From IMG/VR virus record IMGVR_UViG_3300025096_000060, positions 1-36,570 of that record: a DNA stretch of 36,570 bases; one strand, 5' to 3'. Each line of letters starts with the position of its first letter. Within the stretch, counting starts at the first letter, position 1. Source of the stretch: a virus. Of the stretch, positions 1 to 23,928 are shown one piece after another. The notes beneath the pieces were generated by a model that saw only the letters and a program-made list of their open reading frames with translations, was not told the origin of the DNA and did no database searches. A program made the translations under genes and the position numbers.

Positions 1-3000
1 ATAAGAGGAGCTTTAAGTTCGGCTGCTCAATCAGGTGGTGTAGAAGCCTTACAAGAAGTTACAGCAAGCTTGTCTCAAGATTTATTAGCTCGTGGTTTAT
101 ATAGTGATGAACTACCAATAGGTGAAAGTCTTTTTGATGAGTTTACTATAGGTGGTGCGGTTGGTGGGTTTGCTGATTTTGCTGTTAATGCAATGTCAGG
201 AAGAACCAAAAGCAGAGCTTATCTAAGAGAGTATGAAAAAACCGCTAGAGATAATGTAGCTTCTACCATTGAAGAAAACAAATTCCAAAAAGGTATAGAT
301 CAAGGAGATGTTGAAGTTGCTCAAGATCAACCGATAGGCGATAAGCCTAATGAAATAACACTGCCAGCAAATCCAGACATTATTCCATCATTAGAAGTTA
401 TTGAAGATGCAAATGGTGCATTTAATGTTATAGATGCAACCGATCCTGAAAATCCAATTGTTCAAACCTTTGCTCAAGAAACAGAGGCACTTGTTTTTAA
501 AGACAAACAAGAAAACAATTACCAAAGAAAGATAACAAAGAATGAAGTAGATCAAGCAAAGTTTAACTTAGGACTTCCTGAAAGCTCTACTGCTGATGTA
601 ATTGGCTCAACCATTCGTGACCCAAATATTGGAGAGGTTAATCTATCCAGTGTTATCGACCTTGATACAACCTTATCTGAAGAACAAAAGAAAGTTTTAC
701 AGAAAGAAAGAACAGATATCTTTGGACCAAACAAAAAAGCCTTTAGTCAAGCAAGAGTTGCAAGGCTCGGTCCAAAACTAAACAAGATTGGCAAATACGT
801 TCAATCAAAAGGTCTTGACCTAAAGAGTAATTACTCAATGGCTGAGACTCAAAAGATTCTTAATAAGAAAGATTACACTAATCTTTTAAAAGATCGTTCA
901 CAAGTAGTGTTTGAACAATCCGAGAAAGATGGCATTCCTTCTATTAGAGCTGACAAAGAACAAGTCAATACAAGCGTTAAGGCAATGAAAGATTTGGCTG
1001 CGTCAAAAAATATTGATTTAGACTTTAAATCACCTGCGGTTAGATACGCTGCATTACGCTGGACTGGTACTGAGAATATCACGAAAGCTGGAAAACCTGC
1101 TAAGGAACTCTTCTTGGCTCGCATACACTCCCTACCTACGTTTAGCACCGAAACAAAATTCCCAGACTTTAGACCCAGAGAATACACGGCAATAGATGTT
1201 GCCAATTTTGTTGCGTCTAAAGCCAGTCAAGATGCAGAGTTTACTGTTAAAGAACTTTTGTCAGAAGAAACCAGCCCAACATATAAAAACAAAACAGCCA
1301 CAGAACAATTTATTAGTGATCTTACTACCAGTGGTCGTGCCGAAAAGGTTGAAGGAACAAACAAATATAAAATTAGAAAGAACTTCCAGTACGATATTGC
1401 TAGAAGGTCTGAGGCTTTTAATGAAACTCCCGATGAATATGAAGCAAGACTAAGGCAAGAAAACAAAGTTCCTGAAGATGTTATTCAAACATTGGTAGAA
1501 AAAGCAAGAGAGAATCAAAAGGGAACGCTTCCACCAAAAGAAATAGAACCTAAGATTATTAACTTTGCCGAAGCCGTTGAGCAAGGAAAAATAAATAAGT
1601 TTGCACAAGAGGCTAAAAAAATATTAAACGAAAGAGGTTTAAAAGAAACAGCAGTTATCGTTAGTGATGACATTCTTTCTACAACGACCCTAGCAGAAGA
1701 TGCCTCTGGTAATATTATTTACGATCCAAGAATAACTAGAGCTACACCAACAGAGGGTGCTATTGAAGGCGAATATGATGTAAGCACAGATACTATTTTC
1801 TTATCTCTTAATGCGGTTAATCCTGATGGCACAGCCTCACAGGAAGAAATAGAAAATAGATTAATGCAAGCTTTAGACCATGAAATGATTCATGCTCTTC
1901 GTACAAAAGATTTAATTACAGAATCAGAATATCAATACCTTAGAAAGCAAGTTAAAAGAGCAAAGGTTCCAAAGAGTTATGATGCTCAATTTGAAGGTCA
2001 AACTTTTTACGATAGGGCTATTGCCTTAAACTCTGAGACAGTAGCGACTCGTGGAAGAGAGTTTCAAGAAGAGTTTTTTGTAGAAGAAGCTATTGCAGAA
2101 ATGTATAGAGCTAGAAACTTTAAAGTACAAATGCCACCTAAAGCTGAAGGCATCTTTAATAAAATGGTTGAGTTCTTTAGTTCTATGGGTCAAGCCATGC
2201 GTACTTCTGGATTTAAAAGAACATCACAAATCTTTAGTGAAATAGAAGCTGGCAAAGTAGGCAGTAGAGAAAGAGGTGTCATTAGAACACTGATGCAAAC
2301 AGACAGGCTTCCACCTTCTGCCTTTGATGAAGAACAAGCTGTAGAAATAGAAGATGAGATTGGCACAGAAGAAGATATAGATGCTGATGATGTAGTTACT
2401 GGCAGACCTGTAGTAATACCAAGAATAGAACCAACAAAACCATTTAGTGAAACTGATGCAGATACATCTCCGATCACTGGTGTTTTTATTGATGGTTCAA
2501 ACATTCCTAATCCACCTCCATCTAGCATTGTTCCATACAATAAAGAAAACCTAAGCACTGAAGAATATAACCAACAAAAAGAACAGATTGTAAATGGTTT
2601 GATATCAGCAGGAATTATTGAAAAAACTCCAAGAACAAGCGGTGGTTATAGAGGCGTTAATGATACGTCAACAGTTGAGGTTGCTAAGTGGCTTGCTGAT
2701 AATGCTCCTAGTGAAGACTATAGAATAATAGCTAGAAAATCTTTTGAGTCTTTAAAGCAATTACAAAAGAAAGGCATTAAATTTCCTTTTATTATTGACA
2801 GCAGCAATAAAGATTTAGCTGGTGCTAGTGGTCATATTTCATATAGAAGAAATAGCAGAAATAGATTTACATTACGATTAAATAATTCTAAAAACTACCA
2901 AAGCAGAATTAGTAATGGAGTAAATTTTGAAGTTGCTTTACATGAAGTTTTGCATTCTGCAACTGTAGCTCAAATGCTTAACCCAAACAAAACAGCAAAA

Positions 3001-6000
3001 GGAAAAAAAGCTTACAAAGAATTAACTTTATTACAAGACAAGGTTAATGATTATATTTCAGAAAAAGGAAAAGAATGGAAAAAATTAGCAGACGAAGGAA
3101 AGTTTGATGAATTAGATTCAATAGCAGAAAACGAATCTGAAACAATGTCTGATTATATTCAACGTATAAAATCTGGAAATAAATTTGCTATTACATCTTT
3201 CGAAAAACATAATTTTGCTTACAAAGTTAATGGCATTCAAAGCGGAAACGCAACAAAAGATGTTGCCGAGCTTATAACTTATGGTTTAACCAATAGACCC
3301 TTTCAAGAATTTTTAGAAAAAATACCTTATTCACCCAAAGGAAAGAAATCTTTATGGAATAGTTTTGTAGAAACCATGAGGGGCTTGTTGGGTGTTCCAG
3401 CTAAATTAGACACAGCTCTTTCGTCTTTCTTGCAAAACGCTTCTAATGCTTTAGAGGTTGGAGCTGAAGGAATAACTTTAGAAACAACTCTTCAACAACA
3501 GGAGGATGATACTACAACATCCTCATACGCCTCTCCAACGGATGAGCGAATTGAATCTTTGAATCAGGTTATCTATGGTCTACAAAGACAGCTTGATTTA
3601 GATACGATGTCTCCAAATACTAGGGATAAGATTTCTAGACAGATATACAAACTACAAGACGAAGTAATTAATTTAGAAAGATCACAAGAAGTAAGCGGTC
3701 AAGTGCCACTGTTTTCTAGAGCAACAATAAATAAAAATACTCCTGTAGATTTTCCCCCATATGAAGTGCTTTCTAAAATAAAAGGAAAGTCTTTAACTGA
3801 GGTTATGGATGTTATAGCAAAAGAAGATAAAAACTTATCAATCATTGCTAGAAAAACCAAAGAACAATTAATAAAGTTTGAAAAACAAGGTGTTAATTAT
3901 TCTATTAATGTTATACAGGGTGACAGCAAAGGAAATAAAGCTGTTAATAACAGTCATCTTACAGATGAAACTCTTGAATTAATTAGAAACAAAGAAGGAG
4001 CTAAAGAAGTTCTTACAGATCATTTTTTAAATGGACATGCAAAAGGTGTTGCAGTAACTTTTCCCTCAGTTCCAACGGATACAGGCGGTGCTACAAAAAA
4101 TATTGATATTTATTTAAACAATTTTAATACCGCCTCTGGATTAAGCTATAGAACAATATTGCATGAAGCAATACACGGGGCTACTGTGCCTTTGTTTAAA
4201 GCGGGTCGAAGGTCTTATTTGGGTACGCCTAAATCACAAAAAGCTTATGAGGGTTTTTCAAGATTAAGAGACAGACTAATAGATCATCAAAACAGTATTA
4301 AAGATGAAATGGATCAAGTTTATGAGGAAGGTCGAAAAGAATTAGGCTCAGATTTTGTTGGCACTCTAGATGAAATGCAATATTTAGTTTCTAAAGGATA
4401 CAATAAATATGAAATTGTTGGAAAAGACCATCCAGTTTTTGACAAAAAAGATATACATGAATTAATTACTTATGGTCTAACAGACTTAGATTTTCAACAA
4501 TATTTAGAAAAAATACCTTATGCCCCTCAAGGTAAAAAATCTGTGTGGGATGAGTTTGTTGAAATAATAAGAGAGTTGCTTGGAGTTCCAGCAAAACAAA
4601 ATACTGCTTTATCTGAGGTTCTTGGTCTTAGTCAAGATATGTTATCGGCTGACACAATAGAAATAAACAATGCTTTAATACAATCTCTTGGTGATAGTCG
4701 TGATATAAACCTTTTGCAAGAGTCATCTCGATTTGCTACCGAAGCAAACACAGGTGAGAACATAAAACTCAGGGAAGCCGTTGACAGGGCGGAGGAGATC
4801 GTCAAACAAACTCCTAGAGGTGAGATACCTATTTATAATATAAATGCCTCAGATGTCGCATTAAAGGCTGCTATAGAGTTTAATGAAGACATTACAGCGC
4901 CAATGCCATCAAAGAATGTTCCTTTATTTTCAAGGGCATCTATCCCATCAGAGTTTAATGATCTTGTTAAAAGAACAGGAAAGTCTCCAGAGCCAACACA
5001 ACCATACGGGGTTAGGCTTTTAGATGTCATTAACAATCCAGTAGAAAACATTAGGAAAGCATTTAAAGACACACGACAAAACTTTATAGATAAATTAGAT
5101 AAAGTAGATAAAAAAATCTTAGCTGGCAGTGAGTCTAATGAAGATGTAAGGCTTGCCAACAATGCTGCTTCTACATCAACAATGGCTGCTTTGAGAATGG
5201 GCGATAGAGCCAGAGGGGTTTTCCAATCCATGTTAATGATTGGCACTCCACAAAGTACAATAGAAGGCGAAGATGCTTTAACAAATGTGCAAGCCTTAGA
5301 AATTAGCACTCGTTACAATCCATTTATTGCTGGCAACAAAGGAACAGGTGGTCTTATGCAGATCATGGCTCCATTGTATGCAAACCCAAGTGTTAATTTA
5401 GAAGAAGTCTTTGGTATATATGCCAAGTTAAAACGGGTTCAAAAACTACAACAAGAAGGCAGAGAGTTTGAAACACCTATTACACCTAAAGATTTAGAGC
5501 AAATCAGAGTTATTGAAACAAAATACAAAAGTGTTGTTGAAGCTTGGAACAACTATCAAAAATGGAACAATGAATTAATAAGTTTTGCTGAGGACAAGGG
5601 GTTGTTGAATGCAGAACAAGCAGAGCTTTGGAGAGAACAATCCAGTTATTATCCTTTCTACAGAGAAATGGTAGACGATGAAGGAATCACAGCCCCTACT
5701 ATTGGTGGTGGCTCATTGCCTAATAACCCATTAAATATTGAGATGAAAGGCTCTCAACGAGAAATTAATGTTAATCCTGTAGAAGCAATTGCTAGAAACT
5801 CACTGTCAATCCTAACGGGCGCTATGAAAAATGATGGTACATCTAAACTGTTAAGAGATTTAGAGACAATGGGCGAGGCAAGAAGGGTTAGCCCTAGAGA
5901 AAAGAAAGAAGGAAACTTAAACACTATATTCTCTTTTGAAGATGGTCAGAAACAATATTGGGAAATAGATGATGTTGAATTGTTTCATGGAGTACAAGCC

Positions 6001-7662
6001 ATTGGTGGGGTCAAGACAGATGCGGTTACTCGTTTCTTGGCTTTCCCTTCAGCCATACTTAGAGACACAGTTACTCGTGATCCAGGATTTGTTGTTGTCA
6101 ACTTGCTTAGGGATACCCTATCAGCAGCAGTAACTTCAGGCGCTCCACTAGGCTTTAGAGAAGATGGTTTTACTCCCATAATTGATACAGTAAAAAATAT
6201 GTTTGCCGATATATCAGACTTAGAAAAGTTTGGTGTAATCGGTGGATATGATTTCCAAAATGATGAGGGAAGTGTTAAGCAGTTAATGGATAGGGCGAGA
6301 AGGCAAAAAGGATTATCACCTGATAATGGGATGAACGCTGAAAACGCTTTCTATAAACTTTGGGATGGCTTGGGTGCTTTGACCACTAAGTCTGATGGTG
6401 CAACTCGTTTGGCTGTATACAATGCGGTCTATAATGACATGAAGAAAAGAGGCTCATCTGAAGCTGAGGCACAATCTGAAGCTGCCTATCAAGCATTAGA
6501 GATTATTAACTTTGGTCGAAGGGGACTATCACCATTGTTTAGAGTTGTGACATCTGCCATACCATTTATGAACGCTAGGATTCAAGGTCTTGATGTCTTG
6601 TATCGCTCTGCTTCAGGACAATATTCAGCCACAGAAAGACTTCAAGAAGGCGAAACGCTAGATGATGTGAAGAATAGAATACAAAGAAAGTTTGCTTTAC
6701 GAGCTTCGGCAATGATCGCTGCGACAGCATTATATTATTTACTGGTATCAGATACCGATGAATACAAGGAAGTGAAGCGAGAAGTCAGAGATGACAATTG
6801 GATTATTCCAACTGGATTAGGATATGCAATTAAGATTCCTATTCCGTTTGAGGTCGGCATGTTGTTTAAAGCCATTCCTGAGAGACTAATAGATGCAACC
6901 ATTGGCAGAGGTGTTGAGAAAGACCCAGCTAAATCTATTTTCAGACAGCTAGGAACTTCTGCTGAAGTGCCATTCTTAGGCGGTGATATCAGCATACAAG
7001 CAATTAAACCTATCTTTGAGGTAGCGATAAACAGAAACAGCTTCACCAACTCAGAGATTGTTCCTTACTATCAACAAAAATCTTTGCCCGCTTATCAATC
7101 AAGAAAGTCTACTAATGAACTGGCTAGGATTATGGGAGAGTTTTTCAACATATCACCCATCAAAATAGAGCATGTCATCAATGGATACACAGGAACGCTT
7201 GGTGGATATGTCTTGGATATCATAGATGTATTTACAAGAAGCATGACTGGAACTCCACTCATTCCCCCAAACATAAACGATGTACCAGTATTAAAAAGAT
7301 TATTTATTGATCTGGATAAGTCTGGCGGTTTACAGCAACAATTCTATGAACTGAGATCAGAAGTAGAAAGAGCTACAATTACTTTGAACAAACTCAAAGA
7401 TCAAGGAAGGTATGACGAACTCACTGCTTACAGGGAACACAACAAAGGAATCTTCCAAGTTAAATCTCAGATTAATGCCATCAATAGATACATGGGTAAT
7501 TACAGAAAGAAAAGAGACAGGATCATGCAGAGAACAGATATCTCTATGTCTGCCAAGTCAGATATGATTAGAGAGCTAGAGTTGGATAGAGATAGACGAT
7601 TAGCGATTGTTCCCGCTTTGCGGGAGAAAGCTGACGTTCCAATGATCTCTTTGGGCAACTAA
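1..7662 (+). CDS. giant polyvalent virion protein, 5'-truncated
   Basis: The frame is open from base 1 (2,553 codons to the TAA at 7660), so the start lies outside the window; the TTG at 70 is not a convincing start. Three HExxH zinc-peptidase motifs are visible: HEMIH at nt 1879, HEVLH at 2941 and HEAIH at 4162. The last two lie in a tandemly duplicated module. From about 4940 onward there is a long helical region. The part around 5980-6330, with RDPGFVVVNLLRDTLSA, resembles the large polyvalent protein-associated domain LPD38, and a hydrophobic helix follows near 6700. Such proteins are large, are packaged in phage heads and are thought to enter the host with the DNA. The heptapeptide VPLFSRA occurs twice (3703, 4918). 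The end overlaps the convergent gene at 7600 by 63 nt. The family call is from memory; substrates are unknown. Confidence 0.85.
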   Translation: MRGALSSAAQSGGVEALQEVTASLSQDLLARGLYSDELPIGESLFDEFTIGGAVGGFADFAVNAMSGRTKSRAYLREYEKTARDNVASTIEENKFQKGIDQGDVEVAQDQPIGDKPNEITLPANPDIIPSLEVIEDANGAFNVIDATDPENPIVQTFAQETEALVFKDKQENNYQRKITKNEVDQAKFNLGLPESSTADVIGSTIRDPNIGEVNLSSVIDLDTTLSEEQKKVLQKERTDIFGPNKKAFSQARVARLGPKLNKIGKYVQSKGLDLKSNYSMAETQKILNKKDYTNLLKDRSQVVFEQSEKDGIPSIRADKEQVNTSVKAMKDLAASKNIDLDFKSPAVRYAALRWTGTENITKAGKPAKELFLARIHSLPTFSTETKFPDFRPREYTAIDVANFVASKASQDAEFTVKELLSEETSPTYKNKTATEQFISDLTTSGRAEKVEGTNKYKIRKNFQYDIARRSEAFNETPDEYEARLRQENKVPEDVIQTLVEKARENQKGTLPPKEIEPKIINFAEAVEQGKINKFAQEAKKILNERGLKETAVIVSDDILSTTTLAEDASGNIIYDPRITRATPTEGAIEGEYDVSTDTIFLSLNAVNPDGTASQEEIENRLMQALDHEMIHALRTKDLITESEYQYLRKQVKRAKVPKSYDAQFEGQTFYDRAIALNSETVATRGREFQEEFFVEEAIAEMYRARNFKVQMPPKAEGIFNKMVEFFSSMGQAMRTSGFKRTSQIFSEIEAGKVGSRERGVIRTLMQTDRLPPSAFDEEQAVEIEDEIGTEEDIDADDVVTGRPVVIPRIEPTKPFSETDADTSPITGVFIDGSNIPNPPPSSIVPYNKENLSTEEYNQQKEQIVNGLISAGIIEKTPRTSGGYRGVNDTSTVEVAKWLADNAPSEDYRIIARKSFESLKQLQKKGIKFPFIIDSSNKDLAGASGHISYRRNSRNRFTLRLNNSKNYQSRISNGVNFEVALHEVLHSATVAQMLNPNKTAKGKKAYKELTLLQDKVNDYISEKGKEWKKLADEGKFDELDSIAENESETMSDYIQRIKSGNKFAITSFEKHNFAYKVNGIQSGNATKDVAELITYGLTNRPFQEFLEKIPYSPKGKKSLWNSFVETMRGLLGVPAKLDTALSSFLQNASNALEVGAEGITLETTLQQQEDDTTTSSYASPTDERIESLNQVIYGLQRQLDLDTMSPNTRDKISRQIYKLQDEVINLERSQEVSGQVPLFSRATINKNTPVDFPPYEVLSKIKGKSLTEVMDVIAKEDKNLSIIARKTKEQLIKFEKQGVNYSINVIQGDSKGNKAVNNSHLTDETLELIRNKEGAKEVLTDHFLNGHAKGVAVTFPSVPTDTGGATKNIDIYLNNFNTASGLSYRTILHEAIHGATVPLFKAGRRSYLGTPKSQKAYEGFSRLRDRLIDHQNSIKDEMDQVYEEGRKELGSDFVGTLDEMQYLVSKGYNKYEIVGKDHPVFDKKDIHELITYGLTDLDFQQYLEKIPYAPQGKKSVWDEFVEIIRELLGVPAKQNTALSEVLGLSQDMLSADTIEINNALIQSLGDSRDINLLQESSRFATEANTGENIKLREAVDRAEEIVKQTPRGEIPIYNINASDVALKAAIEFNEDITAPMPSKNVPLFSRASIPSEFNDLVKRTGKSPEPTQPYGVRLLDVINNPVENIRKAFKDTRQNFIDKLDKVDKKILAGSESNEDVRLANNAASTSTMAALRMGDRARGVFQSMLMIGTPQSTIEGEDALTNVQALEISTRYNPFIAGNKGTGGLMQIMAPLYANPSVNLEEVFGIYAKLKRVQKLQQEGREFETPITPKDLEQIRVIETKYKSVVEAWNNYQKWNNELISFAEDKGLLNAEQAELWREQSSYYPFYREMVDDEGITAPTIGGGSLPNNPLNIEMKGSQREINVNPVEAIARNSLSILTGAMKNDGTSKLLRDLETMGEARRVSPREKKEGNLNTIFSFEDGQKQYWEIDDVELFHGVQAIGGVKTDAVTRFLAFPSAILRDTVTRDPGFVVVNLLRDTLSAAVTSGAPLGFREDGFTPIIDTVKNMFADISDLEKFGVIGGYDFQNDEGSVKQLMDRARRQKGLSPDNGMNAENAFYKLWDGLGALTTKSDGATRLAVYNAVYNDMKKRGSSEAEAQSEAAYQALEIINFGRRGLSPLFRVVTSAIPFMNARIQGLDVLYRSASGQYSATERLQEGETLDDVKNRIQRKFALRASAMIAATALYYLLVSDTDEYKEVKREVRDDNWIIPTGLGYAIKIPIPFEVGMLFKAIPERLIDATIGRGVEKDPAKSIFRQLGTSAEVPFLGGDISIQAIKPIFEVAINRNSFTNSEIVPYYQQKSLPAYQSRKSTNELARIMGEFFNISPIKIEHVINGYTGTLGGYVLDIIDVFTRSMTGTPLIPPNINDVPVLKRLFIDLDKSGGLQQQFYELRSEVERATITLNKLKDQGRYDELTAYREHNKGIFQVKSQINAINRYMGNYRKKRDRIMQRTDISMSAKSDMIRELELDRDRRLAIVPALREKADVPMISLGN
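2713..4620 (+). repeat. tandem intragenic duplication of a metallopeptidase module
   Basis: Two segments of the giant protein are clearly homologous. Copy 1 is about 2713-3435 and copy 2 about 3832-4620. Both start with IIARK followed by a lysine/glutamine-rich helix, carry LHExxH in the middle (HEVLH, HEAIH), and end with ELITYGL, LEKIPY, GKKS, LLGVPAK and TALS in the same order and spacing. DNA identity is low enough that the duplication is old. Copy 2 is longer before and after the HExxH. Confidence 0.85.
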
Positions 7663-17529: not shown

Positions 17530-18075
17530 CGACACCCCTAAGTTATTGATTTACAAAAGGATTTCGGAACATTCTAATTTGGAAAAATGGGTAAAAACGA
17601 TACAAAAACCATGCTTTTTTGCCTGTTTTTAAGAGCAAAGGATATGCAAGTGTTTGATTTTTAAAAGGAATTTTGTTGTTGCGCAACCACAGATGGGTTT
17701 GGAAAGGCAATCTCTAGGAAAAACATTGTAGGATAAAATATGAAAAAATTAACCTAAAGATTGCCAACCATTTATCTAACCATATATATATTAGATTGGA
17801 GGATAACCATTATGAAATGATTAACTAGAAATATAGGCTAGTTGATTGCATATTGCAAGAGAAACACCACTAGATGTTGTATCCCACAAAAGAACCAACC
17901 ACTATATGTTGTGTTTACGGCTAAAAAACTATCTGAATATAAATATTTTATTAAACCAGTTAATAAGGACAATCAAACGAAAGCCAACAAATATCATATA
18001 CCAGTAAATATTTATTATTTCCCAACAGGATGTTGCGCCCACCTGTAGTATTTGCACCACCATAAAGACACAGGC
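17530..18075. other. non-coding region with a long imperfect hairpin
   Basis: No convincing gene is seen here. It holds a 10-bp palindrome GTTGCGCAAC (17678-17687). An inverted repeat pairs GGCAATCTCTAGG (17706-17718) with CCTAAAGATTGCC (17753-17765), with 12 Watson-Crick pairs of 13. A rightward GGAGGAT ribosome site sits before a two-codon frame (ATG AAA TGA, about 17812-17820). Two near-identical 16-mers (CCACTA(G/T)ATGTTGT(A/G)T) lie at 17867 and 17899. It could hold an origin, a small RNA or the remains of a gene. Confidence 0.5.
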
Positions 18076-18124
18076 AAAAAAAAAGCACACCCCACCTGAT
18101 CTTTACGACCAAACAGGATGTGCT
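18076..18124 (-). terminator. intrinsic terminator closing the leftward operon
   Basis: On the minus strand AGCACA with an inner CCTG pairs with CAGG and TGTGCT across a 15-nt loop, then runs into nine U (plus-strand A run 18076-18084). It lies 16 nt after the stop of the last gene of the 18141-23653 operon. Confidence 0.85.
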
Positions 18125-18140
18125 ATTTATTATTTTCCGC

Positions 18141-18392
18141 TTACAGCCCTCCTTCTGCTATTTCATCTTCCCACTTTTTGATTTGATTGAGCAATGCAAC
18201 CGCACACTCATGCCTACCAACGATGATGTCGTCAGAACCATCGGTGCATTTCGGTCTTTGGTCATTTTCATATTCATCAATAACCTCTTTACTATCAACC
18301 GCCTCATCGTGCAACCATTCTAAAGCCCACCTATGCAGTCTTTCTTGAGTCCACAAGTAATTAAGGAGAGTGTCACTCTTTTTAACTGTCAT
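18141..18392 (-). CDS. hypothetical protein, last gene of the ribozyme operon
   Basis: The 83-residue acidic, helical product contains LLNYLWTQERLHRWALEWLHDEA and GRHECAVALLNQIKKWEDEI. No family is recognised. The start overlaps the upstream gene by 11 nt, so the two are translated together. They form the last of the four two-gene pieces that hammerhead cleavage would make, ending at the terminator. Confidence 0.65.
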   Translation of the reverse strand: MTVKKSDTLLNYLWTQERLHRWALEWLHDEAVDSKEVIDEYENDQRPKCTDGSDDIIVGRHECAVALLNQIKKWEDEIAEGGL

Positions 18393-18705
18393 CAGACACC
18401 TCCAACAAGACTTGCTTGCCTTTACGTTTCATTTTGACAGTATCCCCAACCTCAGCTTGAGCCTTGATTCCCTTAATAGAGATTCTTCTATCGCCTCTCG
18501 CATTGTTGGTTCGATACAGGTTTATTTTGGTTTCAGTGCCATCAATAAATTTAGCTTCAATGGTATGCTTTTCACCGCACTCCATGTCAGCAAAATCTAC
18601 ACCGCATGACAAGGCAAAATCTCTGACACTGTTATTGGCATCAATGATGGCTTTGTTAAGCATTGTAGAAGTAAGCTTGATGACTCCTTCTTTGTTTTTA
18701 CTCAT
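18382..18705 (-). CDS. hypothetical protein with possible EcoRII-N-like beta-barrel
   Basis: The 107-residue product has an N-terminal helix (TMLNKAIIDANNSVRDF) and a strand-rich second half: TKINLYRTNNARGDRRISIKGI, then EVGDTVKMKRKGK. That second half resembles the pseudobarrel of EcoRII-N and B3-type DNA-binding domains, where the loop with R and N touches DNA. The likeness is moderate and from memory. The ATG has GGAGG nine nt upstream, and a hammerhead ribozyme ends 32 nt before the ATG. Confidence 0.6.
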   Translation of the reverse strand: MSKNKEGVIKLTSTMLNKAIIDANNSVRDFALSCGVDFADMECGEKHTIEAKFIDGTETKINLYRTNNARGDRRISIKGIKAQAEVGDTVKMKRKGKQVLLEVSDDS

Positions 18706-18737
18706 AATGTTCCTCCATTTAAGTAAATTATTTAGTT

Positions 18738-18796
18738 AACTGATTTCGAGCATTTTTGCTCTCGTCAGAGGAAAACACACATTTTCCTTATCAGTT
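18738..18796 (-). ncRNA. hammerhead ribozyme, type III
   Basis: Read on the minus strand: stem III AACUGAU, H17 = A (18789) at the cleavage site, stem I AGGAAAA with loop UGUGUG and UUUUCCU, core CUGACGA (18768-18762), stem II GAGC with a six-base loop and GCUC, core GAA, stem III AUCAGUU. All three stems pair perfectly (7, 7 and 4 bp), and the 15.1-16.1 pair is A-U. It ends 32 nt before the ATG at 18705, just upstream of its GGAGG. Cleavage is predicted between 18789 and 18788. Activity has not been shown. Confidence 0.9.
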
Positions 18797-18825
18797 GGCT
18801 TCAGCATTTGAGCCTAGAGGCAATT

Positions 18826-18874
18826 CTAAGAGTAGGGTAAGGGCATAACATACCCCAAAATACCCTACCCTTAG
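18826..18874 (-). other. long hairpin after the VWA gene
   Basis: Arms at 18826-18839 and 18861-18874 pair over 13 of 14 positions (GTAGGGTA / TACCCTAC at the centre). The 21-nt loop has its own GGG/CCC pairing. It starts eight nt after the stop at 18883. No U-run follows on the minus strand, so it is more likely a 3'-end stabiliser or weak terminator, placed between that stop and the ribozyme at 18738-18796. Confidence 0.65.
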
Positions 18875-18882
18875 AAATCAAG

Positions 18883-20184
18883 CTATGAATACAAGCTTGA
18901 GGTGTCCACATAAATAACCTCTCCAAAAGGAAGCCTCTCGGAGTATCGGCTTTTATCGGTGACACACCATATTACAGGAACATCAGGCTCGACCTCTGCT
19001 TTGACTCTGCCCCACCCATCGGTGAAATAAATGAATGCTTTTACATTCTCTAGGTCATCGGTGTAATCATTGTAGAGATTGAAAGGAGGAGTAAAGTCAG
19101 TTCCACCTCCACCCCTTGCTATGAGTTTCACTTCATCACCTTGATCCAAGTCAAAGACATCCCACCATTCACCATCTCTATTCTTACGAACAGTGGTGTC
19201 ACAATAGCAGACCCGAACCCTCTCAAGCCCACAATCCTCAGCCATAGCTTGCACCTCAGTTGCATAGATGTTGAGTTCAGATTGAGAAACCGATCCCGAA
19301 GTATCCACAGCCATAACCAGTTCACCACCATAAGGTGATCTAGCTTTGCTCGGTAGACAGACTCCTCTCCATGAATGCCTTTTGTTCAGCCTTGACCATG
19401 TATTCACATTGGCAACAGTTGACTCTAAAAGGTCGCAGAGTTCATCTCTCCAGTTGATCTTGGCATCCTTCAGTTCTTTGATGCTATTACTGAAAGAATA
19501 AGAACCAGTCGTTCCCATAGCCTTCTGAAGTTTATCGGACATTGATACCGCCCTCTGAATTTCAGTTCTGAGTTCTGAGAGTTCAGTTGCAGTCAGTGGT
19601 TTCCCTGATTCTGACTTTGCATCCCATACCTCTCCTACAGTGTTGGGAATAGAATCTAAATCAATGTCTCCTACCTTCTGACCTGATTTACCTCCCTCTC
19701 CCTCAGTCGGAGTTCCTGAGCCTTCGCCTTCACCTTGACCCTCTCCCATCTGATCTAGGGCATCTTTCAATGCCTCCTCATCATTGATTAAGTCTCGGTA
19801 TATTTGCTCAGCAGTAAGCCTATGGTATTTCCTGTTCATTAAACCACCTTCAGGCAGTTCCATTCTCAGGTCATAAACCAAGTAGGTATTGATGGCATAG
19901 TCACAGGCAATGTTCCAAACTTTAGGATGTCTAGTGGCTCTCCTAAGCATATGTTCATAAACACAATGCAAGGCTTCATGAACCAAGACACCTTTAAGTT
20001 CTTGTTCTGAAATCTCAGCCACGAAAGAAGGATTATAAAAAATATTCCTTCCATCAGTGGCTAGGGTTTCACACTTACTGGCTTCCACCTCAACAAGGTT
20101 AAGATGCAGAAGCATACTTGCCATACCTACATGACCCTTCATTAACTTGGCTCTAGCCTTAATGATTTTATCTAGTTCAGTCAT
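18883..20184 (-). CDS. metallopeptidase-like/VWA protein, DUF2201 type
   Basis: ATG 20184 is chosen: GGAGG lies eight nt upstream, and the TTG at 20199 is inside that site. In 433 residues, an N-terminal domain has HEALH (69-73) and IACDYAINTYL (92-102), as in DUF2201 putative metallopeptidases. A G/E-rich linker (about 147-168) follows. The C-terminal von Willebrand A-like domain has an intact metal site: DTSGS (294-298), T362 in GGGGTDF and D389 in YFTDG. VWA partners of MoxR ATPases couple ATP hydrolysis to remodelling of a target. The MoxR and DUF3150-like genes lie directly upstream. Confidence 0.85.
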   Translation of the reverse strand: MTELDKIIKARAKLMKGHVGMASMLLHLNLVEVEASKCETLATDGRNIFYNPSFVAEISEQELKGVLVHEALHCVYEHMLRRATRHPKVWNIACDYAINTYLVYDLRMELPEGGLMNRKYHRLTAEQIYRDLINDEEALKDALDQMGEGQGEGEGSGTPTEGEGGKSGQKVGDIDLDSIPNTVGEVWDAKSESGKPLTATELSELRTEIQRAVSMSDKLQKAMGTTGSYSFSNSIKELKDAKINWRDELCDLLESTVANVNTWSRLNKRHSWRGVCLPSKARSPYGGELVMAVDTSGSVSQSELNIYATEVQAMAEDCGLERVRVCYCDTTVRKNRDGEWWDVFDLDQGDEVKLIARGGGGTDFTPPFNLYNDYTDDLENVKAFIYFTDGWGRVKAEVEPDVPVIWCVTDKSRYSERLPFGEVIYVDTSSLYS

Positions 20185-21142
20185 CCTTAGACCCTCCAAA
20201 GGCTTTATCTAAAAAGCCTCCTTTAAGTCCACCTACTGCACCCGATAAATCCTTAGCTACTTTCTTTCGCTTGGATGTATCACCTCTAAGAGTGTCTACA
20301 GAATCTATAGTAGAAAATACCGACACTAACTTTTGATGAGCCTTGTTTATTGTAGGATCATTGCCCAAGATATCAGAGTTGATAGAGGGCAATACTTCTA
20401 CTGCTTGTCTCAGCTTGTCAAAACTGCTCTTATTGAAAAAGCCTTTCTGCTTGTCATCAGGGTCATACTCATCTAACTTTCCTGAAACATGATCCACTTG
20501 CTCCACTAGAGCCTCCACAGTCGTCTTAAAGACACTTTTAATATTGTTGTTAGCCCTATTAACAGCATCGTTCTCTATCTTCTCTCTCAGTTCACTAGAA
20601 ACATTGAGTCGGATATCTTTTGACATCTGAGGCACTAGACCCAATTCAAAATCAAATTTGAATTTTCTCTCTAGGTCTTCAGTGTGAAGATAGTCATCTT
20701 CATTATAAGTATCCCCTAAGTTGGTCTTCGCACTTTCGACCATTTTAGGATAATTCTTCATAAAGCTTCTGACCTCTGTATCCCATTCGATCTTAGCCTT
20801 ATCCACCTGTTCCTGAAGGTGAGGTAAATTACTGTTGGGGCAAAGTCTCCACCCCGATACAGTATGACCCTCATCATCCGTAGAGTTGTCAGACCATGCC
20901 ACAGTCAAAGGATAATAAGAGTTGTTTCTAAACTGATTCAGAATACGTCTAAAATACTTATTAACATTCGTTCCGTAGATATGCTTTGACACATTAAGGA
21001 GTCTTGGGTCAACAACTTCATTGTCATTGGCTAATTCCTCCCTTAAATACTTATCCACTTTCAATCCGCTTGGATGTTTCGCAGTGAGGCGAACCAAAGT
21101 CGTATTTTCAGCTAAAGTATTATTTATTGCTTTCTTATCCAT
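20177..21142 (-). CDS. DUF3150-like protein, middle partner of the MoxR-VWA module
   Basis: The start is ATG 21142, with GGAGG about eight nt before it; the TTG at 21157 lies in that site. It has 321 residues. The order GWRLCPNSNLPHLQEQVDK, then FMKNYPKMVESAKTNLGDTY, YLHTEDLERKFKFDFEL and PQMSKDIRL matches the body of DUF3150 proteins as I remember them. A glycine-rich C-terminal end (GAVGGLKGGFLDKAFGG) could be a flexible interaction tail. DUF3150 genes often sit with MoxR and VWA genes. It overlaps the VWA gene by 8 nt, and a hammerhead lies 29 nt before its ATG. Confidence 0.65.
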   Translation of the reverse strand: MDKKAINNTLAENTTLVRLTAKHPSGLKVDKYLREELANDNEVVDPRLLNVSKHIYGTNVNKYFRRILNQFRNNSYYPLTVAWSDNSTDDEGHTVSGWRLCPNSNLPHLQEQVDKAKIEWDTEVRSFMKNYPKMVESAKTNLGDTYNEDDYLHTEDLERKFKFDFELGLVPQMSKDIRLNVSSELREKIENDAVNRANNNIKSVFKTTVEALVEQVDHVSGKLDEYDPDDKQKGFFNKSSFDKLRQAVEVLPSINSDILGNDPTINKAHQKLVSVFSTIDSVDTLRGDTSKRKKVAKDLSGAVGGLKGGFLDKAFGGSKDD

Positions 21143-21170
21143 AATTTTTTCCTCCAAAATATTAGATAAA

Positions 21171-21225
21171 TTACTGTTTCAAACTTTCGTTATCTTCAGG
21201 CGGGATACACATCCCACTACAGTAA
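21171..21225 (-). ncRNA. hammerhead ribozyme, type III
   Basis: On the minus strand: stem III UUACUGU (21225-21219), H17 = A (21218), stem I GUGGGAU with loop GUGU and AUCCCGC, core CUGAAGA (21199-21193), stem II UAAC with GAAA loop and GUUU, core GAA (21180-21178), stem III ACAGUAA. Stem III is a perfect 7 bp, and stem I is 7 bp with one U-G pair. Stem II has three pairs with a U-U at its base, a weak point. Cleavage is predicted between 21218 and 21217. It ends 28 nt before the ATG at 21142. Confidence 0.82.
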
Positions 21226-21295
21226 AAATGGGCAGAGGGCAGAAAACATATACCAGTAAATAATATTGTATTCTACCCCCCGTCACTTTTCAGGA

Positions 21296-22354
21296 TTAAA
21301 CCTCCAAGTCCTGATTGTCTACTTTGAATTTAGAGAAGGTCGCAGTATCCATCAATTCAGGTCTAGCCCCAATGACTGATCTGACAAAGAAAATCCCATA
21401 CTCAGGAGTCGGAAACTTCTCGACATACTTCAGACTATTCTTAAAGAAAGAACCAACCTGTTTTTTGTTGGCTTCTTTGAGAACAGTGACCAATGCAACA
21501 CAGGTTGCATACATCAATCCATTGTCATCTGACACCTCAACATCTTTGCCACCCACAATTGCATCTAAATCAGGCACTTTATCTTTAAGAGATAAGAAAG
21601 ACGTAAATTCAATTGAAGCCTCCTCTCCTACATCTGCCTCTGAGATCATTTGAAGCAAATCTCTAGATGGTTCAGTTTTCAAAGTGTCCGACAGCCTTAC
21701 CCATGATCTAGGTGAGGGCTGAGGAGTAATCACTTTTGGGTCAAAGACGTTCAAAAAGTTTGGCATGGCTTGTATAAAAGCCATCACATCTAAGTGAACA
21801 TCATTTTCCATAGCCCAATTCATCCAGTCATTAGTGTCATGCTCAAAGTTAATTAAGCTTGTCCTACCGATAACATGAGAAGGCAGTTTATTAGAGCCAG
21901 CCCTATCGGTTGCCCTGTTAGAAGCACAGACTATCTTCCACCCTTCAGGAAGCTGATACTCTCCTAATCTTCTTTCATAGATCAATTGCCCTACGACTGC
22001 CTGAACAGAAGGGGAGGCTTGACCATATTCATCAAAGAACAATAAGCCTTCACCACTAATGGGAAGATTGCCTAAAAACGCTCTCCTCTGAACAAAAGAA
22101 TCATCTACCTCTACAGGCACAGGAACACCGCCTAAGTCAACGCTCTCATATAGAGCCAACCTAAACGATATACTTCCATACTCATTCTTTTTAGGGTTAA
22201 TACAATCAGCAACAATCTTTCTATCATTGGCTAGATACTCAGTCAGTACATCAACCACTGCTGATTTACCGATTCCAGTTCCTCCAATTAAGAAAGGTGA
22301 GTTGCCACCTTTTATTACGGATTTCATAATCCGTAGTGCATCACTTGGTTTCAT
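21296..22354 (-). CDS. MoxR-family AAA+ ATPase
   Basis: The 352-residue protein has Walker A GGTGIGKS (24-31), Walker B LLFFDEYG (104-111), sensor 1 CASNR (143-147) and a following HVIGRT stretch with the arginine that senses the neighbouring subunit. This is the layout of MoxR/CobS-type AAA+ proteins, which form rings and act with VWA proteins. The module continues downstream with DUF3150-like and VWA genes. Start ATG 22354 follows GGAGG by nine nt. Its leader has hairpins but no hammerhead core. Confidence 0.85.
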   Translation of the reverse strand: MKPSDALRIMKSVIKGGNSPFLIGGTGIGKSAVVDVLTEYLANDRKIVADCINPKKNEYGSISFRLALYESVDLGGVPVPVEVDDSFVQRRAFLGNLPISGEGLLFFDEYGQASPSVQAVVGQLIYERRLGEYQLPEGWKIVCASNRATDRAGSNKLPSHVIGRTSLINFEHDTNDWMNWAMENDVHLDVMAFIQAMPNFLNVFDPKVITPQPSPRSWVRLSDTLKTEPSRDLLQMISEADVGEEASIEFTSFLSLKDKVPDLDAIVGGKDVEVSDDNGLMYATCVALVTVLKEANKKQVGSFFKNSLKYVEKFPTPEYGIFFVRSVIGARPELMDTATFSKFKVDNQDLEV

Positions 22355-22394
22355 AATTTTCCTCCAATTATTTACAAGTTAGTTTGGGTTAATT

Positions 22395-22456
22395 CCCATT
22401 AATCACACTCGTTATAAATATGATTAAGGGGAGTTGAGCAGTTTTAAATCTTGCTC
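22395..22456 (-). other. paired hairpins in the MoxR leader
   Basis: CCCATTAATCA (22395-22405) pairs with TGATTAAGGGG (22421-22431) over 10 of 11 positions, and GAGCA (22436-22440) pairs with TGCTC (22452-22456). CUGAGCA on the minus strand resembles the hammerhead CUGANGA but has C for G8 and no GAA partner. This is the only leader of this size in the operon without a hammerhead-like fold. Confidence 0.5.
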
Positions 22457-22467
22457 AGGATTAGAGA

Positions 22468-23088
22468 TTAACCTATGCCTTCCTCACCATCAAAGAGTTC
22501 ACATCGACAATGTTCCCACAGATCAAGGTGTATGCTGTCGCTATCCCTGTTCTTCTCAAAGACTTCAGGCAGACCGATAGAACACAATACCAATGGCATT
22601 ACATTAGGGATTGATCCAGTATCAATTATGATGCTATCTCTGAATGACCAGTAATCATAAAAATTATGAGGCTGAACCCAATTACCAATGATCTCCCCAT
22701 TCACAATATTTGCGAAAAAGATTATCGGAAAGTCGGTGTCGTAAACTCCCACATTGGATTCAATAAAGTGAGGCTTATCGTATTCCTCGTCATATGTAAA
22801 ATCACAATACTTAACGAAGCTTTCTCGTAGAGCCTCGTGATGATCTTTTAGACAAGAATTTAAAAGCCCTGTTGATTGCCTCCATTCAATCCAATTGTAG
22901 GGTTCGCCTAGACGTTTTTCGACCATACCCCAAAGAGCATTAAAAGAATCTACTTTCTTTACAGCAGAATCTATTTCATTGATCTCTGATTGGGTTAGTT
23001 TTTGCACATCTGCAATAGAGTCATTCCTTCCTAACTTATCCAGTTTTTCAAGAAGCTCATTTAATTGTTTTTCAGTTAATTTATTCAT
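22468..23088 (-). CDS. hypothetical protein upstream of MoxR ATPase
   Basis: The 206-residue acidic product has a helical front (LNELLEKLDKLGRND, INEIDSAVKKVDSFNALW) and a mixed domain with FPIIFFANIVNGEIIGNWV and VMPLVLCSIGLPEVF, resembling a SMI1/KNR4-like immunity fold only in general outline. I cannot assign it. With the MoxR gene it forms one of the two-gene pieces released by ribozyme cleavage. The ATG has GGAGG about 11 nt before it, with a type I hammerhead ending 30 nt upstream. Confidence 0.65.
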   Translation of the reverse strand: MNKLTEKQLNELLEKLDKLGRNDSIADVQKLTQSEINEIDSAVKKVDSFNALWGMVEKRLGEPYNWIEWRQSTGLLNSCLKDHHEALRESFVKYCDFTYDEEYDKPHFIESNVGVYDTDFPIIFFANIVNGEIIGNWVQPHNFYDYWSFRDSIIIDTGSIPNVMPLVLCSIGLPEVFEKNRDSDSIHLDLWEHCRCELFDGEEGIG

Positions 23089-23118
23089 GGTTATTAATCC
23101 TCCATATTTGTGTTAATT

Positions 23119-23179
23119 ACCAAGACCCAATCTTTCGATTGGGTTTCGCTCAGATTTTCACTGAGTCTCATCAGTTGGT
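23119..23179 (-). ncRNA. hammerhead ribozyme, type I, canonical
   Basis: On the minus strand: stem I ACCAA (23179-23175), core CUGAUGA (23174-23168), stem II CUCAG/CUGAG with a closing G-C and one bulged A, core GAA (23147-23145), stem III ACCCAAUC with GAAA tetraloop and GAUUGGGU (perfect 8 bp), cleavage nucleotide C (23124) giving the preferred GUC triplet, then stem I UUGGU (23123-23119). Every invariant core base is present. It starts ten nt after the previous stop and ends 30 nt before the ATG at 23088. Cleavage would leave a 35-nt leader with the GGAGG site. Confidence 0.95.
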
Positions 23180-23189
23180 TTAAAAGGTT

Positions 23190-23438
23190 TTAATAATATT
23201 CTTCCTCATACCAGCCTTCATCGTAGTCTTTAATGAGGGTTAGGTTTCCCTTGTTGTCAATGGCTTCAACAATGAGATAACCGAACTTATCGCACCTTTC
23301 GCAAGGGTGATCGGTTTGGTAGTGGTCGTTGTAGTTTTGGTTGTCCGTGGCTGGGGACATAGAGTAAAATCCTCTGCCACTGCATGATTTACATTTGATA
23401 GTGTCTCCAACCTCTACTTCTGCTTTAGTTAGTCTCAT
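23190..23438 (-). CDS. DnaJ-like zinc-ribbon small protein
   Basis: This 82-residue protein shows CKSCSGRGF (residues 16-24) and, about 30 residues later, CERCDKFGY. That is two C-x-x-C-x-G-x-G-type knuckles as in the zinc domain of DnaJ, and they should bind one zinc ion. The tail is acidic and aromatic (DYDEGWYEEEYY). Its role is unknown; such mini zinc ribbons are frequent in phage early regions. It overlaps the upstream gene by ATGA. Confidence 0.65.
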   Translation of the reverse strand: MRLTKAEVEVGDTIKCKSCSGRGFYSMSPATDNQNYNDHYQTDHPCERCDKFGYLIVEAIDNKGNLTLIKDYDEGWYEEEYY

Positions 23439-23653
23439 CTTGCACCTCCCATGATGATATGTGAAATATCAATTAACTGGTTTAGGTTAGATGTTTCAAT
23501 TCTTCTCTTATTAGAATCATTGACCTGTTCATAAGCTTGCACTAAAGCACTCGCTGTAAACATATCCACAAGCACTCCTTCTATCTCTTTGGCTTGCTTG
23601 TCTTTGACAATGGATTGCACTGTTTCAAATGCAGTTGTATTTAGTTCTTTCAT
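23435..23653 (-). CDS. conserved small phage protein, first gene of the ribozyme operon
   Basis: The 72-residue product has the central pattern VLVDMFTASALVQAYEQVNDSNKRRI, a motif repeated in many phage hypothetical proteins (VD-x-F-TA-S-A) of unknown role. It is helical throughout. It is the first gene after the promoter region near 23900. Its ATG has GGAGG ten nt upstream, and a hammerhead-like element ends 32 nt before the ATG. Confidence 0.7.
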   Translation of the reverse strand: MKELNTTAFETVQSIVKDKQAKEIEGVLVDMFTASALVQAYEQVNDSNKRRIETSNLNQLIDISHIIMGGAR

Positions 23654-23685
23654 AATTTAATCCTCCAAGATTAAATAGTTAGTTG

Positions 23686-23736
23686 CTGAATTCATCCTTT
23701 GGGAATCTTCAGTAGAGACACACATCTCTATTTCAG
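23686..23736 (-). ncRNA. hammerhead-like element, type III, variant core
   Basis: On the minus strand: CUGAA (23736-23732), A, stem I UAGAGA with loop UGUGUG and UCUCUA, core CUGAAGA (23712-23706), stem II UUCC with CAAA loop and GGAU, core GAA (23693-23691), UUCAG (23690-23686). Stems III and I are perfect (5 and 6 bp); stem II has three pairs and a U-U. The conserved A15.1-U16.1 pair is swapped to U-A, which is expected to lower or abolish cleavage. Layout and position otherwise match its sister elements. Confidence 0.65.
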
Positions 23737-23900
23737 ACTTACTTGGTGTTTCGTTTTCCACCTCTCCAGTATTAAGTTTTCACTGTGTCATTGGGTACGC
23801 TCTTTAGTTGAGTGATAGAGGGTAAAGAGTAAGCCTCCAGTCAGTTTTAAGGGGTCAGTTTTTCTGTTGTTCTCTCTCCTAAAAGTTAATTTATATACCC

Positions 23901-23928
23901 AATATAGACTACTGCAAGCAGATTGCAA
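23901..23928 (-). promoter_or_regulatory. probable promoter of the leftward ribozyme operon, with long leader
   Basis: Minus strand: -35 TTGCAA (23928-23923), 16-nt spacer, -10 TATATT (23906-23901). The message would carry a leader of about 240 nt before the ATG at 23653. It holds an inverted repeat CTCTTTA/TAAAGAG (23800-23806, 23823-23829) and the hammerhead-like element, with no convincing gene in between. The TTGCAA box is self-complementary and could also serve the rightward side. Confidence 0.45.

Follow-up and report, generated by a model that had tools for sequence, protein, structure and literature searches.

Engineered insulators of the RiboJ type place a hammerhead ribozyme and a hairpin before the ribosome-binding site to obtain a uniform 5' leader, and they are single elements at the transcript start. 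Among natural systems, clustered hammerheads flank genes or short gene blocks in prophages, including the A. tumefaciens ardA array and arrays of C. scindens and A. caulinodans, and were proposed to cut long phage transcripts down to messages the length of an operon or a gene (Perreault et al. 2011, PMC3088659). Three tandem arrays were cleaved in vitro and one in E. coli (PMC3088659), and the cut of the HHphage hammerhead of haloviruses HF1/HF2 matches a mapped 5' end (PMC3088659). In 2023, the reason for the gene associations of hammerheads was still called unknown (PMC10085705). Here, we describe a phage gene block in which several hammerheads flank genes or blocks on the same strand as the genes, as in the prophage arrays. 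The initial annotation of this DNA knew of no described phage operon of this kind, a claim that has to be withdrawn given that the prophage arrays embody the same processing idea and were shown to cleave (PMC3088659).

A phage gene block with four hammerhead ribozymes

The stretch of DNA that we analysed as a whole (the window) is a 36,570-base IMG/VR record with terminase, head, recombination and primase/helicase genes. It also encodes a 2530-aa protein at 70-7662 with a large-polyvalent-protein-associated domain (LPD38). Eight minus-strand open reading frames (ORFs) run from 23653 to 18141 and are followed by a strong intrinsic terminator. This terminator had been noticed in the initial annotation, as had the DUF3150-like and VWA genes, and profile matches bear out both assignments. 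In order of transcription, the features of the block are as follows (^ marks the predicted cut):

23901-23928, minus strand: weak sigma-70-like promoter candidate at the unit start (TTGCAA-16-TATATT, 9/12 consensus positions; not above shuffle background)
23684-23738, minus strand: hammerhead 1, type III; predicted cut after 23731 (AAA^); R1 71.6 bits, E 1.7e-17; GUCUGAAA^UAGAGAUGUGUGUCUCUA CUGAAGA UUCCCAAAGGAU GAA UUCAGCA
23435-23653, minus strand: 72-aa ORF, no assigned function; Shine-Dalgarno sequence; conserved in L001, L002 and L015
23190-23438, minus strand: 82-aa ORF, zinc-ribbon-like (weak DnaJ_CXXCXGXG); overlaps the 72-aa ORF
23119-23179, minus strand: hammerhead 2, type I; predicted cut after 23124 (GUC^); R3 75.5 bits, E 1.9e-17; ACCAA CUGAUGA GACUCAGUGAAAAUCUGAGC GAAA CCCAAUCGAAAGAUUGGGUC^UUGGU
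22468-23088, minus strand: 206-aa ORF, no assigned function
22355-22467, minus strand: structured gap ahead of MoxR in the window's clade, with two conserved hairpins
21296-22354, minus strand: MoxR-like AAA+ ATPase (phrog_1297, E 7e-66)
21233-21283, minus strand: strong hairpin lying past the MoxR stop codon and ahead of hammerhead 3; apex formed by the palindrome TTTACTGGTATAT; the 75 nt upstream of the cut have z -4.8
21171-21225, minus strand: hammerhead 3, type III; predicted cut after 21218 (GUA^); R1 78.2 bits, E 2.3e-19; UUACUGUA^GUGGGAUGUGUAUCCCGC CUGAAGA UAACGAAAGUUU GAAA CAGUAA
20177-21142, minus strand: DUF3150 family protein (PF11348 matched by 7/7 family members, best E 6.5e-7)
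18883-20184, minus strand: VWA-like / putative metallopeptidase protein (DUF2201_N + DUF2201; phrog_1314); overlaps DUF3150
18822-18878, minus strand: long hairpin lying past the VWA stop codon and ahead of hammerhead 4 (from folding)
18738-18796, minus strand: hammerhead 4, type III; predicted cut after 18789 (AUA^); strict motif; R1 40.1 bits, E 1e-8; AACUGAUA^AGGAAAAUGUGUGUUUUCCU CUGACGA GAGCAAAAAUGCUC GAAA UCAGUU
18382-18705, minus strand: 107-aa ORF, no assigned function
18141-18392, minus strand: 83-aa ORF, no assigned function; overlaps the 107-aa ORF
18084-18124, minus strand: intrinsic terminator, 18-pair stem and then a T run

The four hammerheads called initially are all recovered on the minus strand as types III, I, III and III by two covariance models built from relatives, R1 (type III) and R3 (type I). 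Stem III is open in elements 1, 3 and 4 (type III). The 3' edges of elements 1 to 4 lie 30, 30, 28 and 32 nt before the ATGs at 23653, 23088, 21142 and 18705, matching the 28-32 nt first reported. Because type III elements are cut at their 5' side, the predicted cuts of elements 1, 3 and 4 fall 77, 75 and 83 nt before the ATG, compared with 35 nt for the type I element 2.

Run over 36.6 kb, R1 and R3 return exactly these four elements at 40-78 bits (for element 2 the R3 match spans 23116-23181), and the next match has E 0.36 or worse; element 4 was outside the R1 training set and still scored 40.1 bits. A first, stricter motif scan had caught element 4 alone, since a U-U mismatch and a bulged stem II hid the others, and was then relaxed. 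The resulting strict scan for the core plus three stems finds 3/4 elements on the minus strand, none on the plus strand and none in 200 shuffles or the reversed sequence. A chance origin of the four elements is excluded.

Pairing is well kept among related elements. In an alignment of 12 type III rows, standard pairs fill 96.9% of the pair cells, two-sided compensatory changes occur in 14/16 pairs, and the covariation score is 0.848 compared to 0.246 in shuffles and at most 0.123 with slid partners. The type I rows are 95.7% paired, with two-sided changes in 9/17 pairs. Larger sets give 93.4% pairing in 90 distinct type III rows and 97.6% in 38 type I rows, values biased towards the models to which these alignments were fitted. 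Sequence, structure and covariation thus support that helices I, II and III are kept by compensatory change and that these are genuine hammerheads.

The core CUGANGA ... GAA(A) at the three-helix junction is present in 4/4 elements, with GAAU in place of GAAA in element 1. Elements 2 (GUC), 3 (GUA) and 4 (AUA) combine an NUH site with A15.1-U16.1, and element 1 has the site AAA and the inverted pair U15.1-A16.1, a variant also found in L001, L002, L015 and L016. The 10.1-11.1 position closing stem II is G-C in elements 2 and 4 and a U-U mismatch in elements 1 and 3. In type III, loop I has a conserved UGUGU(A/G) and loop II NAAA, which may or may not reflect a tertiary contact of the two loops. 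The elements are therefore not equal: U15.1-A16.1 is a variant reported to cut inefficiently (PMC3088659), so element 1 is probably a slow cutter and trimming of the leader perhaps partial, and U10.1-U11.1 may slow the cutting of elements 1 and 3.

These departures from the consensus raise the question of whether the elements still cut at all. Hammerhead-derived leaders that have lost cleavage and are kept as insulators of the ribosome-binding site or as protein-binding hairpins would fit the A15.1-U16.1 rule being broken by element 1, as well as the frequency of U10.1-U11.1, which occurs in 68/85 parsed distinct type III elements (15/32 among those not picked by the search pattern). We judge this scenario improbable, as the rest of the core is intact, 89/89 other type III rows that have letters at 15.1-16.1 show A-U, no mismatch is better tolerated than U10.1-U11.1, which is found in natural hammerheads (PMC3088659), and permuted types sharing only the catalytic core replace one another at one gene border (see below).

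Rfam gave no match over the window at E up to 1. Over 6.2 kb it reported RAGATH-1-hammerhead alone, on element 2, at 27 bits with a gathering score of 56.3, and in 109 kb from ten related loci there was no match at gathering level. Together with the default rejection of hits mispaired at 10.1-11.1 by Perreault et al. (PMC3088659), this silence suggests that the U10.1-U11.1 form of type III has probably been under-counted.

Conserved borders and exchangeable ribozymes in related phages

We collected relatives (L001-L016) from IMG/VR with DUF3150 and MoxR queries. A covariance scan of relatives had been proposed as a check in the initial annotation. Hammerheads are present at the same borders in every relative testable. 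The MoxR-DUF3150 border carries one in 12/12 relative loci having this border, or 13/13 with the window (type III in 12/13, type I in L011). After VWA, a type III hammerhead is present in 10/10 relative loci having the border, or 11/11 with the window; that of L010 has the core CUGAAUGA, one base longer. A type I element lies directly ahead of MoxR in L005, L006, L007, L009, L010, L011 and L012, and one to four genes further upstream of MoxR in the window's clade. Protein identity among phages keeping a ribozyme at the same borders is about 50-100%. Hammerheads were found in the window and 11/11 related records searched, where they are concentrated in this gene block (larger records 34-60 kb). 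No hammerhead is present at this location in seven named phages that have MoxR and VWA genes (St11Ph5, Phosso, S-TIM5, CRP-7, D501, pYD6-A and PJN101), so the gene pair is not enough to predict the ribozymes. DNA of the region had no match among named phages, and the DUF3150 protein had zero matches in 50,697 records.

Each predicted piece of the window holds exactly two genes, as first described. This is no general rule, given that pieces in relatives hold one to five genes and that a further ribozyme splits DUF3150 from VWA in L011 and L012. The gap at 22355-22467 was checked as a possible fifth ribozyme and has no hammerhead core and no match to an Rfam family. Its second hairpin shows compensatory changes in L016, and its site is that of the type I hammerhead in other relatives; the double hairpin could be another processing element.

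Two pairs of close relatives suggest how such arrays change. In the sisters L011 and L012, identity is 95.3% as far as the MoxR stop codon and 97.0% from the DUF3150 leader onward. The border in between is filled by a 64-nt type I element in L011 and by a hairpin plus a type III element in L012, and the two ribozymes have the catalytic core in common but differ in sequence and topology. The simplest reading of this swap between near-identical phages argues that cleavage itself is selected, i.e., that the cut is what selection keeps at this border. In L006 and L007, a stretch of 98.7% identity starts exactly at a type I cut site (1115 in L006 and 1441 in L007). The ribozyme ahead of MoxR in L007 stands unchanged one gene upstream in L006. 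The shifted identical ribozyme and the break at its cut site suggest gain or loss of one gene-plus-ribozyme module. Homology breaks at ribozyme edges were not taken as proof of recombination, because the ribozyme is itself a conserved stretch. The type I ribozyme that L006 and L007 have in identical form, with a long stem III, lies at L006:483-597 and L007:1331-1445, at different gene borders.

Beyond these relatives, DNA patterns of the two forms matched 21 and >119 IMG/VR stretches. On 89 further loci, R1 and R3 found 160 hammerheads in 88, with one weak partial match left out. Two or more hammerheads are present in 41 loci and three or more in 16, counts in which one element per locus is present by selection and the extra elements are not, and mixed strands occur in none of the 88; a few survey loci stem from contigs already sampled (e.g., L119 from the contig of L011). 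The genes downstream include MoxR (17), DUF3150 (9), VWA (5) and several unknown families. As a tentative generalization, hammerheads might be standard message dividers in a large group of uncultivated phages, where any type would fit a border given hairpin-capped ends, modules of a gene and its ribozyme would be gained, lost and exchanged, and self-processing rather than promoters would set the expression of blocks; we see this as possible, at somewhat worse than even odds.

The survey also includes one-strand arrays of four to six hammerheads with mostly unknown phage genes downstream (L066, L097, L116, L073, L081 and L113), and type III hammerheads of the same form as in the window (L087, L112 and L091). 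In L087, outside the window's phage group, the genes behind them encode an AAA ATPase and a VWA protein, which by eye resemble CobS/CobT.

Predicted RNA ends and proposed division of the transcript

In our preferred reading, to which we assign a probability of roughly 75%, the block is a phage operon of ~5.8 kb, and four cis-acting hammerheads split its transcript into four translatable messages, with stability and translation of the blocks uncoupled. Self-processing of a polycistronic message would be the simplest reading of the array, and we infer that cleavage takes place in the infected cell and affects decay and translation. Each ribozyme would fold co-transcriptionally and cut once, so that the upstream piece would end in a 2',3'-cyclic phosphate and the downstream piece would begin with a 5'-hydroxyl. 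The resulting messages would comprise the genes starting at 23653 and 23438, that at 23088 with MoxR, DUF3150 with VWA, and those at 18705 and 18392, and a leader of about 160 nt would also be trimmed off.

The array seems arranged so that most new ends would be structured. With a type III element, cut at its 5' side, the downstream message would start with the stem I hairpin at its first base and the upstream message would end in a separate strong hairpin located before the ribozyme; with a type I element, cut at its 3' side, the stem III hairpin would become the 3' end of the upstream message. Folding agrees with this for each type III downstream product of the window, which opens at base 1 with a perfect hairpin, and for type I elements, where the stem III hairpin remains one base from the new 3' end. 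The hairpins at 21233-21283 and 18822-18878 are predicted to form the 3' ends of the MoxR and DUF3150-VWA messages, respectively. Over 45 distinct elements, the 75 nt before type III cuts have a mean fold z of -3.1 against shuffles, the exceptions being three type III elements of relatives, with values near 0, and the window's leader. The 3' edge lies a median of 30-32 nt before the ATG, and this short leader with a Shine-Dalgarno sequence would be what remains between ribozyme and gene. The likely purpose would be to let each block decay at its own rate, independent of the primary 5' end, and to provide a uniform leader for ribosome binding. Type I elements ahead of MoxR in relatives are followed by a GCTAGC-GCTAGC hairpin. 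Covariation of the spacer hairpins is not claimed, as their MAFFT alignment was poor.

What such ends would do to a message can be judged from E. coli, where a 5' stem-loop of ompA blocks 5'-end-dependent cleavage by RNase E (PMC4191395) and there seems to be no kinase that acts on the 5'-hydroxyl ends left by a hammerhead (unpublished data cited in PMC4191395). Hairpin-capped 5'-hydroxyl ends could therefore favour stability, an argument weakened by the many RNase E sites that are cut independently of the 5' end (PMC4191395).

Several observations fit poorly with a divided operon. The gap between the 23088 gene and MoxR has no hammerhead, element 1 has the U15.1-A16.1 pair of a poor cutter in the known example (PMC3088659), the downstream product of element 2 lacks a 5'-terminal hairpin on folding, some type III elements of relatives have no strong pre-cut hairpin, and internal promoters could still operate. 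Separate promoters before each pair, which the initial annotation had named as evidence against its model, would turn the ribozymes into trimmers of 5' leaders, a natural counterpart of RiboJ, rather than dividers of one message. Element 1 sits in the leader with no gene before it, and the spacers of 50-90 nt ahead of type III elements (median 70 nt from the upstream stop codon) offer enough room for a promoter; in one of them there is a conserved palindrome, TTTACYRGTAWAT, with a single further copy outside the array near 17995-18010. Type I elements begin at the upstream stop codon itself (median 0 nt), so that a promoter would have to be intragenic, promoter-like sites are fewer than in shuffles (11 observed vs 15.4) with no convincing internal promoter in the operon, and there is no clear terminator between blocks, the only one being at 18124-18084. 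We therefore regard leader trimming behind separate promoters as rather unlikely.

Because the hammerhead reaction yields both types of ends and the array pieces are ribozyme-cut at each end, the pieces could also be joined into circular messages by RtcB or by reverse cleavage. We consider this highly improbable: RtcB was not found in the window or in any of six large virus records related to it (the control was positive; a host RtcB is possible), and Perreault et al. sought spliced or circular products and found none (PMC3088659). Division of one transcript into linear messages remains our preferred reading, and what it retains of the initial interpretation are the genuine ribozymes, the conserved borders and the location on the strand of the genes, without the lack of precedent, the two-gene rule and the equality of the four elements.

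Separately, the palindrome TTTACTGGTATAT occurs twice on the minus strand, at 21247-21262 in the MoxR-DUF3150 spacer and at 17995-18010 just past the operon terminator. Both sites are conserved in relatives, and in L011 and L012 the palindrome forms the apex of hairpins ahead of type III ribozymes; it is a possible protein-binding or regulatory site.

Comparison with known systems

If self-processing holds true, RNA catalysis would take the place of promoters or host RNases in partitioning these operons, and the protection of ends would follow a simple rule. The gene block offers a clean test of the role of bacterial and phage hammerheads. Since its type III elements fall under Rfam thresholds, such ribozymes are probably under-counted in viral metagenomes.

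Compared to RiboJ-type insulators, the type I elements ahead of MoxR in relatives have the same order of hammerhead and then hairpin. Element 2 aligns over the whole RAGATH-1-hammerhead model (RF03152), including the core, the GUC site and the type I order, but stays under the gathering score, and elements 3 and 4 do not match. The HHphage hammerhead of HF1/HF2 likewise lies directly ahead of a gene in a phage polycistronic unit, but is a single ribozyme with a variant core and an archaeal host. The arrays of Perreault et al. share with ours that several hammerheads of different types lie around phage genes or blocks. However, their gene identities are not constant and they belong to integrated phages, whereas the array described here has fixed MoxR/DUF3150/VWA borders and type exchange at one border, and is found on contigs of uncultivated phages. 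As far as the literature shows, what appears new from these sequence comparisons are fixed borders that keep a ribozyme through deep divergence, the exchange of types in near-identical phages and the predicted capping of ends, all seemingly belonging to a conserved array with interchangeable ribozymes, which is present in many uncultivated phages and missed at Rfam thresholds.
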